Shown here: positions 3,560-13,098 of the stretch, piece by piece
How the letters are laid out: every line of letters starts with the position of its first letter
Numbering within the stretch: position 1 is the first letter of the stretch
Assembly (NCBI GenBank): GCA_004297765.1
Contig: SCTZ01000071.1
Location: forward strand, 1-64,000
Direction: 5' to 3'
Length of the DNA: 64,000 nucleotides
From: Chloroflexota bacterium
GTDB lineage: Bacteria > Chloroflexota > Dehalococcoidia > FW602-bin16
Notes under the pieces: generated by a model
The model's database searches: none
What the model saw: only the letters and a program-made list of their open reading frames with translations
What the model was told of the DNA's origin: nothing
Program-made: the position numbers and the translations under genes

Positions 3560-5116
3560 TTGGCTAGCCGCACCAAGGCTATCGTTTCGGCCACCGCCAT
3601 CTTGATGGTGGCCTTCGTGGCGAGCCGCGTGCTTGGGTTGGCGCGCGATATCGTCATCGCCCACGCCTTCGGCACCAGCGCCGAGCTGGACGCCTATAAC
3701 GCCGCCTTCCGACTGCCAGACTTCGTCTTCCAGCTTGTGGCCGGTGGAGCCTTCGCCAGCGCGATCATTCCAGTCTTCAGCACCTACGCTACCCGGCGGG
3801 GTCCCGAAGAAGCCTGGCGCATCGTCAGCGCTGTGGCCAACGCCGTCGTGCTCGGCGCGCTGCTCATCGCCCTAGCCGCCTTAGTCCTCGCCCCCAGGCT
3901 CGTTCCATGGCTGGTCCCGGAGTTCTCCCCCGCGCATCAAAGCTTGGTCGTGAATCTCACGCGCGTGATGCTCATTTCGCCCGTGGCGTTCAGCGTGAGC
4001 ATCGTAGTCACCAGCGTTCTGAATGCCCGCCAGCATTTCCTCTGGCCGGCCATCGCTCCGATCGTCTACAACCTGTCCACCATCACGGGGGCCTTGCTTG
4101 CCACCACCGGATTGGGCATTTATGGATTGGCGGCGGGAGTGGCCGCCGGCTCGGTGTTGCACCTGGCCGTCCAGCTACCAGCCCTGTCGCGCTGCGGCGC
4201 GCGCTACAATCTAACGCTGGATCTAGGTCATCCGGGAGTGCGTGAGGTCCTCAGGTTGCTCTTGCCCAGAACCATCGGTCTGACCGCGGCCCAGATCAGC
4301 CTTGTGGTCTACACGGCCCTAGCTTCGGGTCTGGCCAGCGGCAGCATCGCCTCCCTCAACTACGCCTGGCTCTTGACTATGATGCCACTGGGTATCTTCG
4401 GGATCGCCGTGGCCAACGCCGTCTTTCCCACACTCGCCGAGCAAGTGGCAGAGCACGATCTGGATAGTCTAAGACGGACTGTGCACGGCGCGCTGCGCAT
4501 GGTCCTGTTTCTCACGATCCCGGCTAGCGTTGGACTGATCACGCTGCGTGTGCCGCTGATCGCCCTGCTGTTCCAGCGAGGCAGCTTCGACCAGCAATCG
4601 ACGCAGATGACGGCCTGGGCCCTTCTCTTCTTCGCGGCAGGGCTCTTCGCCCATGCTACCCTGGAGGTCGTCACGCGCGCCTTCTATGCGTTGCATGACA
4701 CGCTCACGCCAGTGACCCTGGCCGTCGTGTCCATGATACTAAACGTCGGCTTGAGCTTTGTGCTGGTGCGCTTTCTGCAACATGGAGGGCTGGCTTTGAG
4801 CATGTCCATCGCAACGATGGTCGAGGCAAGCTTCTTGCTAGTGATTCTGTCCCGACGCGTGCCCCAGCTAGTAGACTGGCGTCTCGCAGCGGCCTGCGGC
4901 AAGGTCCTGACCGCGGCGGGGGTTATGGGTGGCGTGATCGGCGTACTGGGCTCACGCGGTTTCATCGAACAGACCTCCGAGATGACGCAGTTGGTGGCCG
5001 TCGTCGCGGCCGCGATGCTGGGCGGTTTCGTCTATCTGGGGATCGCGCTCGTCTTGAGATCCGATGAGATCGGCGCAGCCTTGCGGGCTCTTGCAAATAT
5101 CCGGAAAAAGATATAA
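3560..5116 (+). CDS. murJ: Lipid II flippase MurJ / MviN family
   Basis: 518 aa polytopic protein; FVASRVLGLARDIVIAHAFGTSAELDAYNAAFRLPDFVFQLVAGGAFASAIIPVF is a typical MurJ N-terminus. Confidence 0.93.
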   Translation: MASRTKAIVSATAILMVAFVASRVLGLARDIVIAHAFGTSAELDAYNAAFRLPDFVFQLVAGGAFASAIIPVFSTYATRRGPEEAWRIVSAVANAVVLGALLIALAALVLAPRLVPWLVPEFSPAHQSLVVNLTRVMLISPVAFSVSIVVTSVLNARQHFLWPAIAPIVYNLSTITGALLATTGLGIYGLAAGVAAGSVLHLAVQLPALSRCGARYNLTLDLGHPGVREVLRLLLPRTIGLTAAQISLVVYTALASGLASGSIASLNYAWLLTMMPLGIFGIAVANAVFPTLAEQVAEHDLDSLRRTVHGALRMVLFLTIPASVGLITLRVPLIALLFQRGSFDQQSTQMTAWALLFFAAGLFAHATLEVVTRAFYALHDTLTPVTLAVVSMILNVGLSFVLVRFLQHGGLALSMSIATMVEASFLLVILSRRVPQLVDWRLAAACGKVLTAAGVMGGVIGVLGSRGFIEQTSEMTQLVAVVAAAMLGGFVYLGIALVLRSDEIGAALRALANIRKKI

Positions 5117-5221
5117 AATCTGCGACACTCAGCGCCTCACAGGCTGCGAAGGCTGTGCAGGAACGAAACGTGCACACTTGACCTTCGATGCCGAGGTGTT
5201 GTATCTTCAAAGAGGTGGGGC

Positions 5222-6058
5222 ATGACCCAATACCAGCCCGAGGAGAAGGCTCGGCTGAAGCGGCAACTTACTGAGCAGGCGATCTCGCTGGCCATGCAGA
5301 GCCGCTGGGAAGAGGCCGTCTCCGCCAACCAGACGATTATCGACGTCCACCCATCAGATGTGGACGCGTACAACCGTCTGGGCAAGGCCTACACGGAGCT
5401 CGGCCGCTATCCGGACGCCAGTGCCGCTTACGGACGAGCTTTAGAGGTTGATCCGAACAACTCAATCGCCAAGAAGAACCTGACGCGACTCTCTCATCTG
5501 AGTCAGACCAGGGCGGAGGCTCCCCTGGCAGAGAAAGTCGACCCCCGGCTGTTCATCGAGGAGATGGGCAAGACGGGCTTCACCGAGTTGCAGCATCCGG
5601 CACCCCGGAACGTCATCGCGAAGATGAGCGCTGGCGATCCGGTCTATCTCAAGCCGGTCGGGCCGCAACTGGAGGTGGCGAACGCGCGGGGCGAGTATCT
5701 CGGAAGAATCGAGCCGCGCTTGTCGTTACGTCTCCTCAACTTCATGAATCACGGAAATCAATACGCGGCTGGCATCACAAGCTTGGATGACAGTAACATC
5801 CGCATCATCATCAAAGAAGTTCACCAAGACCCCAGCATGGCCGGCCGAGTTTCCTTCCCGCCCAGAGGGCCGGAAGGAATCCGCCCCTATATCAAGGACA
5901 GCCTCCTGCGCTACGAGCTCGAGGACGAGGAACTCCTCGATGAAGGCGAGTATCCCGAGGGACACTGGGAGGCAGAGCCTGAGCAACTTGGCGAGGAGAC
6001 CGAACTCTACGAAGAGGAAGGACATCCTCCCGAGAAGCCAGAGGAGTTCGAACTCTAG
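5222..6058 (+). CDS. TPR-repeat protein with an uncharacterised C-terminal domain and acidic tail
   Basis: 278 aa; TPR motif AYNRLGKAYTELGRYPDASAAYGRALEVDPNN; Glu-rich C-terminus. Confidence 0.8.
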   Translation: MTQYQPEEKARLKRQLTEQAISLAMQSRWEEAVSANQTIIDVHPSDVDAYNRLGKAYTELGRYPDASAAYGRALEVDPNNSIAKKNLTRLSHLSQTRAEAPLAEKVDPRLFIEEMGKTGFTELQHPAPRNVIAKMSAGDPVYLKPVGPQLEVANARGEYLGRIEPRLSLRLLNFMNHGNQYAAGITSLDDSNIRIIIKEVHQDPSMAGRVSFPPRGPEGIRPYIKDSLLRYELEDEELLDEGEYPEGHWEAEPEQLGEETELYEEEGHPPEKPEEFEL

Positions 6059-9706: not shown

Positions 9707-9940
9707 CTACTTCGAATGAGCGGACTTGAGCCTGCTACTCCACGACTTCTTCAGAGTATCCAGACCTGGGTACTTTCCAGGCTTGTATGCCCCGCCAGGA
9801 ACGAACGTTGTTGCTTTCTCACCCTCGGTATTCTTTGCAACAGGCCCCGTTTGTCGCTTAGTTGCAGGACCTCGGATAAGACGAATCTCGCTCCCTTGGA
9901 TATGTATCGTGCGTGAAGTCGACCGTCGAGTAGTACTCAT
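9707..9940 (-). CDS. Small basic hypothetical protein (77 aa) downstream of the SIR2-like gene
   Basis: MSTTRRSTSRTIHIQGSEIRLIRGPATKRQTGPVAKNTEGEKATTFVPGGAYKPGKYPGLDTLKKSWSSRLKSAHSK; same strand, about 83 nt after the SIR2-like stop. No family recognised. Confidence 0.5.
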   Translation of the reverse strand: MSTTRRSTSRTIHIQGSEIRLIRGPATKRQTGPVAKNTEGEKATTFVPGGAYKPGKYPGLDTLKKSWSSRLKSAHSK

Positions 9941-10023
9941 GGCTGGTTCCTCTTCTGTCTTGGGCACGATAGACATTCATGCTCATTCAAAGTATAGCAG
10001 ATGCTCAGCCCAGAATAAACCTC

Positions 10024-11643
10024 CTATCGAGCACGCACACGAAAGCCTGAAATCAATGTCATCCCCACTTCGGACAGCCAGGCATATAGATCATCCAATG
10101 AGCGCTCGCTGGGTTCGACTTCGACTCGCGGTCGAAGTCGAAACAGTGTCCCATTGCCTGTGGAAGTTGTTACATAGACTACTCCGAGGGGAATCCCGCC
10201 TTCGTGCCAATCAGTGATCGGAGCCGAGATTATCCCTTTCACATTCTGTGGGAGAGGCGCATTGCTCGGGTCCAATCCATAATTATACAGAGAATGGTCA
10301 GGCGTCACTCGCACAAGATCGCCGGAGACAAACACGCGTCCAGCAACGCCTGTTGGCTTGTCCGGATCACCTGAGAAAAGCGTAGCGCCCTGGCTGGCAA
10401 TGTCAGTCCCTCCACCCCGGAATGTTAATTCCAACGTGGCCGCATCCGGCTTCAGCAGGAAAACGCCTATCTCAATAACCTCGGCTGGATCGGACACGGA
10501 GAAATCATCTGCTAGGGCCCTGACAGCGTCCGCGAGAAACCAACTGGCCATCTTCTGGCGGTCTGCTCGCCAAGGGTCCACGGACTCGTAACCAAGCTCG
10601 GCCCCACGCCTCCACAGATCACCTGGTTGCCCGCCAAAGCTCTCATACCGCAATCTTACGAGGAAGGGTAGAATGCTGTCATAGTCGGGAATCTCAACTA
10701 TCTCGATTCCATGGCGTTGCCAATACCACGAGCGCGACTCGTTCACCCATGCAGCGCTCGACTTGCGTGTGGTCGCCCTTGTCCTCCATAGTTTCATGTC
10801 TTCTTCCGTAATCGATCGCATGAGTGCGAAGTGTCGAGGCTGCAGGCCGGTCTTGTCACATGGCACCGTCGCCAGAACACGACGCAGGTTGGGATCTGCC
10901 AGCGACATGCCCAGCACCAGCACCCTATGCTCATCGAAGAGGCGATAAAGCTCACGATTGGTCCAGCCGATCAGGTCCGCTGCAATCGCGTGGTAATCAT
11001 CTTCCGCGAGTACAACAGTAGCCTGTCCGGGCTTCGGGTTACCGGCAGACCGATCAGGGGGAGCCAGGAACCCATGCAGGTGCGCGACGAGAAGATCGTT
11101 GTTGACTTGACGGCGATCGGGATCTAGGGTGCGAACCGGGATACCAGCGCGACGCGCAGCCTCTTCCAACAAATCATCGTAGTTGGTCGTCCACAAGCGA
11201 CGTGGCCGCTGAGCAAACAGCGCCACCAAATGGCGATGCACGTGGTCTGGGTCCGGCGTGAAAAGGTCTTCTGACCGCCGCTGTCGACTATATAGGGCAC
11301 TATAGAGTAGTTGCCCTAGCCCTTGGAAAGCCCCGGAGTCCCCTGCCGCGTCAATCCGGCTCCGAAGGTATGAGACGGTTGCCAAGTTGCTGAACCCAAA
11401 CGCCTGATCGACCAGGCCGGCGTAATTACCTTGCGAAAGACGTCGAGCCACGTCGGACGGATCCCATTCTCGCCAGGCGAGGACCATCCGAGTGATCAAC
11501 TGGATCCAGTCAGGAAGACCGGCTCGCAGCGAGATACCAGTGCCTACCAGCGGCGCAAGTTCCGCATTCCGGACCACTCTGGCAATTCCTCTTATCTGCC
11601 CTACCAGCATGCTTGATAGGAGTGGTGCAGGATTCGCTATCAT
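10024..11643 (-). CDS. SIR2-like (putative NADase) protein with GAF-like C-terminal domain
   Basis: 539 aa; SIR2 motifs LVGTGISLRAGLPDW, WTTNYDDLLEEAARRAG, AHLHGFL, LVLGMSLADPNLRRVL; C-terminus GVAGRVFVSGDLVRV...VKGIISAPITDWHEGGIPLGVVYVTTS looks GAF-like. Confidence 0.82.
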   Translation of the reverse strand: MIANPAPLLSSMLVGQIRGIARVVRNAELAPLVGTGISLRAGLPDWIQLITRMVLAWREWDPSDVARRLSQGNYAGLVDQAFGFSNLATVSYLRSRIDAAGDSGAFQGLGQLLYSALYSRQRRSEDLFTPDPDHVHRHLVALFAQRPRRLWTTNYDDLLEEAARRAGIPVRTLDPDRRQVNNDLLVAHLHGFLAPPDRSAGNPKPGQATVVLAEDDYHAIAADLIGWTNRELYRLFDEHRVLVLGMSLADPNLRRVLATVPCDKTGLQPRHFALMRSITEEDMKLWRTRATTRKSSAAWVNESRSWYWQRHGIEIVEIPDYDSILPFLVRLRYESFGGQPGDLWRRGAELGYESVDPWRADRQKMASWFLADAVRALADDFSVSDPAEVIEIGVFLLKPDAATLELTFRGGGTDIASQGATLFSGDPDKPTGVAGRVFVSGDLVRVTPDHSLYNYGLDPSNAPLPQNVKGIISAPITDWHEGGIPLGVVYVTTSTGNGTLFRLRPRVEVEPSERSLDDLYAWLSEVGMTLISGFRVRAR

Positions 11644-11686: not shown

Positions 11687-12472
11687 CTAGTCGTCGTCAA
11701 CACGACAAGTGTGGACGTGTGGACTCACCATTTCATCGGGGAATCGTATGGCATCCGGATACTCGGCCAGAGCTCGGTCCAGCCCGGCGAGATCGATGCT
11801 GGCAAGGCGAATAAGGACCGGCCTTCTCCCGATGTCCTCCAGCGCGTGCGCGTCTGAGCCCTGCACGCACGCGTACGGCTTGGGATACCCATGCACCTTC
11901 CCGGCGTTCCAGGCCGCCTTACGCAGGGGATTCGTGATCTCCAGCGCGGATAAGTGCTCGCTGGCATGGATCGCGCGCTTCCTGCGAAAGTCATAGGTTG
12001 ACTCCAGAAAGCCACGCGGCGATCGCTCGATGTGCGCAGCGATGGCAAGTCCTCCATGCCTCCGGATCGCCGCCAGCGCCTCGACCGTTCCAAGCCTGGT
12101 CTCCACGAACGCTTCCCCTTCGTTGGAGGGCGAGAGCCCAACCTCATTCAGCAGAAGCCGTATCTCCGCCGAGGGCGTCCCCCGATCGAACAGCGCCAGG
12201 ATGTGACCGCCCGGGGTCGTAATCTCCACCCCAGGAAGCACGACAAGCCCAGTCTGCTCTGCCGCTTGCCGCACACCATCGACCGCCCCCACGCCGTTGT
12301 GATCTGTTATCGCGATCAAATCGAGGCCCGCCTCCAGGGCCGCGTCCACGATCTCTGTCGCTTTCACGTGCCGCGCAGCGGGCTCGTAGCAGTTCGAGAG
12401 AGGTGTATGCACATGGAGATCGCACTTGCTATATCCGTCTAACATCGTCTCGCCTCGGTCGCGCCCGATCAC
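11687..12472 (-). CDS. PHP-domain metal-dependent phosphoesterase
   Basis: [67 protein letters not shown]. Start is either GTG 12472 (overlaps the upstream stop) or ATG near 12445. Confidence 0.88.
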
Positions 12473-12930
12473 TCCTGTCGGGCGGTCTTCTTCGGGCTCC
12501 GCTTCATCAGGAGCCAGTTCTTGCCCGGGCCGGTCCGGATCAGCGCGTATGAGCCAACGAGCTTCTGACCGTGCAGCTCAAAGGACAGACGATCCTCCCT
12601 GCGCTCCTCGAGAGTGAACCGGCCGGCGTCCCATATCTCGACCGTGCCCCCCCCGTACTGGTCAGCCGGGATCGTGCCCGCGAAATCGATGTACTCGACC
12701 GGATGGTCCTCTACCTGTACGGCAAGTCGCTTCACCCCTGGCTCGAGCGGAGGACCCTTCGGCACAGCCCAGCTCTTCAACACGCCGTCCATCTCCAGCC
12801 GAAAGTCCCAGTGGAGATGGCTGGCATGGTGTTCCTGGACCACAAAGCGGTCTCCACATGTCTCGCCAGGCCGGCCCGCCGGCTCAGGCGTCGCACCGAA
12901 ATCTCGTTTCCGCTTGTATTCCTCCAGCAT
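12469..12930 (-). CDS. Stand-alone DNA ligase D 3'-phosphoesterase-domain protein
   Basis: From ATG 12930: [19 protein letters not shown]...[74 protein letters not shown]; no ligase or polymerase domain attached. Confidence 0.9.
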
Positions 12931-13098
12931 GCGCTTACCTCCGACCGTCACGTCGCGTCTCCATGATAATAGACGTATCCACATGCGCTGGTCAAATCGG
13001 TCTGCGTTGCTCGCCGACCGCAAGTATGGTATCATTACCCGCCGGTGCCTTGGCGGAACCGGCCGCCCTGGCATGGCGAGAACGCAACGGAGAGCTCG

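Follow-up and report, generated by a model that had tools for sequence, protein, structure and literature searches.

A SIR2 protein with a GAF-like C-terminal domain as a candidate single-gene NAD-depleting immune effector

A gene in the window, by which we mean the whole 64,000-nucleotide stretch of Chloroflexota DNA analysed here, encodes a 539-residue protein that joins a SIR2 core with intact catalytic residues to a tail that resembles a GAF domain and is not a SLOG domain. Plasmid-borne relatives have the same layout, and no conserved partner gene accompanies them. We favour, with a probability of about 0.6, the reading that this is a single-gene, two-domain effector of the immune type, in which a SIR2 NADase carries a divergent GAF-like sensor instead of SLOG. 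The gene was probably acquired by horizontal transfer and probably has an anti-phage role.

With a SIR2 domain of the familiar NAD-destroying, antiviral kind as its front half and a GAF-like domain as its back half, the protein could by itself act as an alarm. The N-terminal SIR2 domain would hydrolyse NAD+, as the conserved catalytic residues suggest, and the GAF-like tail would be the control domain that replaces SLOG. Binding at the tail may rearrange or assemble an oligomer, and this change would then deplete NAD+ and lead to abortive infection, in which the infected cell is killed. To our knowledge, control of the SIR2 defence NADases described so far is exerted by SLOG or by sensor parts that are either separate or very large. 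Precedents for gating by a ligand are gcADPR acting on the SLOG domain of ThsA and dITP acting on KomC via KomB (PMC12948488).

If this reading is right, the SIR2 defence NADases would gain a further type of sensor, a compact control domain of GAF-like character, and ligand, switch and toxic activity could be studied together in a small system made of one protein. SIR2-GAF-like proteins are at present annotated just as "SIR2 family protein". More tentatively, and at less than even odds, they may form a class, as yet without a name, of NAD-depleting immune effectors encoded by one gene, in which a built-in GAF-like domain detects an infection signal directly and no separate signal-making enzyme takes part; the class would be present in at least the Actinomycetota and the phylum of the window.

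The gene and its SIR2 core

The reading frame lies exactly where the original prediction had placed it, on the minus strand (Table 1). It is a single open frame with an ATG start and a ribosome-binding site (AGAAGG) 9 nucleotides 5' of that codon, and the 5.6-Mb assembly contains no second copy. The motifs that the prediction had quoted are all present: GTGISLRAGLPDW, TTNYDDL with N154 and LHG with H190 in the SIR2 part, and GVAGRVFVSGDLVRV...GIISAPITDWHEGGIPLGVVYVTTS in the C-terminus.

Table 1. Positions in the window of the SIR2 and GAF-like gene and of its parts.
Feature	Residues	Position	Strand	Basis
Whole gene, SIR2 + GAF-like protein	539 aa	10024..11643	(-)	Open reading frame, single copy, ribosome-binding site
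SIR2 (SIR2_2) NADase-like core	~16-332	10648..11598	(-)	Pfam PF13289; profile of relatives
NAD-binding glycine motif GTGISLRAGLPDW	34-46	11506..11544	(-)	G34, G36 and S38 invariant against relatives
Counterpart of ThsA catalytic N112 (TTNYDDL)	N154	11182..11184	(-)	Alignment to 6lhx and 8bto; invariant against relatives
Counterpart of ThsA H152 (HLHG)	H190	11074..11076	(-)	Alignment to ThsA chains and relatives
C-terminal GAF-like domain	~355-539	10027..10581	(-)	hhalign against 40 GAF domains from this genome
Stretch collinear to GAF, with GVAGRVFVSGDLVRV and VKGIISAPI..IPLGVVYV	392-495	10159..10470	(-)	hhalign

The predicted SIR2 NADase core is borne out by several lines of homology. Pfam SIR2_2 (PF13289) matches residues 149-288 (E 8.3e-20) with 71.8 bits, where the cut-off is 24.5, and the best PADLOC model for the protein is ThsA (E 4e-19), which matches residues 148-330 only, that is, the SIR2 part. 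A profile built from the protein and five actinobacterial relatives matches the solved chains of ThsA, KomC, DSR2 and other SIR2-like proteins. In the alignments, the NAD-binding glycine motif and the catalytic Asn and His are conserved (G34, G36, S38, N154 and H190), and N154 and H190 fall opposite N112 and H152 of ThsA. The counterpart of N112 is recognisable because chain 8bto, which we take to be the N112A mutant of ThsA, reads TTAYD at the same place.

Cleavage of NAD by ThsA is abolished by N112A, and H152A is inactive as well, although this second substitution also disturbs the oligomer (PMC7272460). Since N154 and H190 match residues that ThsA needs, we infer that NADase activity is likely; this chemistry is well backed by homology.

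The GAF-like C-terminal domain

The tail was compared by hhalign with a profile made from 40 GAF domains that the genome itself encodes. It scored 20.6 over 89 columns, in register with the order of the GAF elements, and a full-length query picked out residues 392-495 as the GAF-aligned stretch unaided. Only one of 192 unrelated 180-residue protein segments scored above 20.6, over only 29 columns; one of 200 shuffles also did so, and all shuffle alignments spanned 40 columns or fewer. Score and alignment length jointly were matched by none of the segments and none of the shuffles, and the claim that GVAGRVFVSGDLVRV...GIISAPITDWHEGGIPLGVVYVTTS reads as GAF thus goes beyond chance. Against other profiles the tail gave 9.8 over 1 column (PAS) and 19.0 over 15 columns (SLOG). 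When the tails of the actinobacterial relatives were added to the GAF profile, the score of the window tail rose to 24.6, as high as which none of 200 shuffles and none of 281 control segments came.

Genuine GAF domains, each left out of the profile in turn, score between 56 and 167 against 20.6 for the window tail, so if the tail is a GAF domain at all, it is a very divergent one; the probability of the GAF match is 4% for the window tail alone. Residues 330-539 gave no convincing match in Pfam, NCBIfam, PHROGs, PADLOC or the PDB sequences, the GAF models of Pfam and NCBIfam did not match the tail even at E 10, and neither did a local GAF model in HMMER. AlphaFold run without an alignment, on the full protein and on residues 350-539, gave a pLDDT of 36 and no confident model, and a fold search with the model of residues 350-539 yielded nothing meaningful. 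The GAF-like C-terminus of the original prediction is therefore upheld in part: profile-profile comparison and relatives of the same layout speak for it, but no curated model, PDB sequence or predicted structure confirms it. On this weak but reproducible resemblance, we regard a GAF fold as supported but not proven by the sequence comparisons.

Gating by cyclic nucleotides, which had been suggested with the fold, is not supported. The NKFDE motif is a signature of cyclic-nucleotide-binding GAF domains. It is absent from the window tail and from the actinobacterial tails, so a cyclic-nucleotide ligand is without support, and the neighbouring genes inspected included no recognisable nucleotide-signal synthase. 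GAF-like domains also sense other things: that of PprI, which controls its protein through the sensing of single-stranded DNA, is needed for this sensing (PMC10904395). PprI/IrrE itself differs from the window protein in being a metalloprotease and not an NADase.

Relatives and alternative explanations

The SIR2 core led to proteins encoded on Rhodococcus and Paenarthrobacter plasmids (WP_054246159, WP_072636836 and ABM10367, with no annotation beyond SIR2 family or conserved hypothetical) that share the layout of the window protein, with a SIR2 core, a GAF-like C-terminal domain of similar length and a solitary gene. The profile of their tails matches GAF more strongly than the window tail does (27.5, E 6.6e-4, 104 columns). 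Among the other SIR2 proteins tested, no tail matched GAF; that of Methylorubrum, a clean control, scored 12.4, and the other stretches reached at most 14.4 over 20 columns, in a set of which only part is a fair control, the longest frame having been used, which at some loci is not SIR2. The actinobacterial proteins differ from the window protein in that identity is 22-29% overall, the region before the catalytic Asn is shorter, and their tails do not align significantly with the window tail, in direct pairwise comparison either. A single clade of window and actinobacterial SIR2-GAF proteins is neither supported nor rejected by the SIR2 tree (AU p 0.23). The actinobacterial genes lie next to recombinase and transposase genes, one of them also next to an Abi-family gene, and no recurring partner gene was found beside them. 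Two Paenarthrobacter plasmids carry SIR2-GAF-like copies (L075 and L076, both at 4962-5927) that are truncated N-terminally near IS3 transposases and have no catalytic Asn region.

By tree path, the cores nearest to that of the window protein belong to plasmid SIR2 proteins of Cupriavidus and Klebsiella (L005 and L006), which show 25-29% identity over the SIR2 core and differ in having no C-terminal domain. The Klebsiella protein (L006:2934-4448, plasmid p2020S07-151-550k) has an N-terminal extension of about 170 residues without a convincing Pfam match. Phage records and viral contigs yielded no relative, and 286 genomes drawn from the same class no relative of the tail. Samples of 330 genomes from the phylum and 329 around a Serratia genome gave no further protein whose match to the profile ran through the tail. 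The weak tail matches seen in 349 genomes of the phylum to which a Serratia genome belongs were at chance level.

Like Thoeris ThsA, the window protein has a SIR2 core with the same catalytic Asn and His, and a single C-terminal domain of about 190-200 residues comes after the core. Given this similar layout and size, and ThsA as the best PADLOC model, the protein might be a ThsA that has a SLOG domain too diverged to be recognised and is activated by a cADPR isomer from a TIR protein elsewhere. We consider this very improbable. The SLOG match covers only 15 columns and PADLOC matches nothing on the tail, no TIR gene adjoins the SIR2 gene, a search of the genome gave no ThsB_TIR, and the SIR2 tree rejects grouping with ThsA (AU test p 0.026). 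Outside its SIR2 core, the protein is not a Thoeris ThsA. It is also unlikely that we are dealing with a metabolic or regulatory NAD-dependent SIR2 enzyme that carries a GAF regulatory domain and has no part in defence. The chromosomal and housekeeping look of the neighbourhood and the lack of a Thoeris-type gene context would suit such an enzyme, but the core matches the SIR2_2/ThsA/KomC/DSR group, the relatives are patchy and lie on plasmids beside mobile-element genes, and the GC3 of the window gene is anomalous.

A further explanation keeps the SIR2 effector and changes the role of the tail, which might sense a phage protein or nucleic acid directly, or serve as a dimerisation module, rather than form a pocket for a small molecule. 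We rate this as possible though somewhat doubtful. DSR2 is activated by a phage tail tube protein (PMC11263360), the GAF-like domain of PprI is required for sensing single-stranded DNA (PMC10904395), and no signal-synthase partner adjoins the window gene or recurs by its relatives; however, sensors of the DSR2 type are far larger than the roughly 185 residues of the window tail. The favoured reading, a SIR2 NADase with its own GAF-like sensor, would work like Kongming, where a SIR2 NADase is likewise triggered by a ligand, but there ligand binding falls to a separate protein, KomB, and KomC is a stand-alone SIR2. Full-text searches, in which subscription journals are largely absent, found no paper on a SIR2-GAF protein in defence.

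Genomic surroundings

The neighbours of the SIR2 gene are a PHP-domain gene, a LigD_N gene, gyrA and a polysaccharide cluster, the last two named by reading their translations. These surroundings are housekeeping- and polysaccharide-like and are not a defence island. The GC3 of the SIR2 gene (0.58) lies below that of its neighbours (0.72-0.82), which suggests acquisition; a search for repeats that could point to its insertion gave none that was convincing.

Directly 3' of the SIR2 gene lies a small ORF (9707-9976, minus strand) of 89 residues, or of 77 if read from a second ATG that follows AGAGGA. Its GC3 is 0.51, and it may be non-coding or a small foreign gene. A functional link with the SIR2 gene was considered and rejected; the ORF has no clear codon periodicity, and no relatives were found. 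On the other side, at 11687-13074 of the minus strand, the PHP-domain phosphoesterase gene and the stand-alone LigD_N (3'-phosphoesterase) gene overlap by 4 bases and are likely to form an operon upstream of the SIR2 gene.
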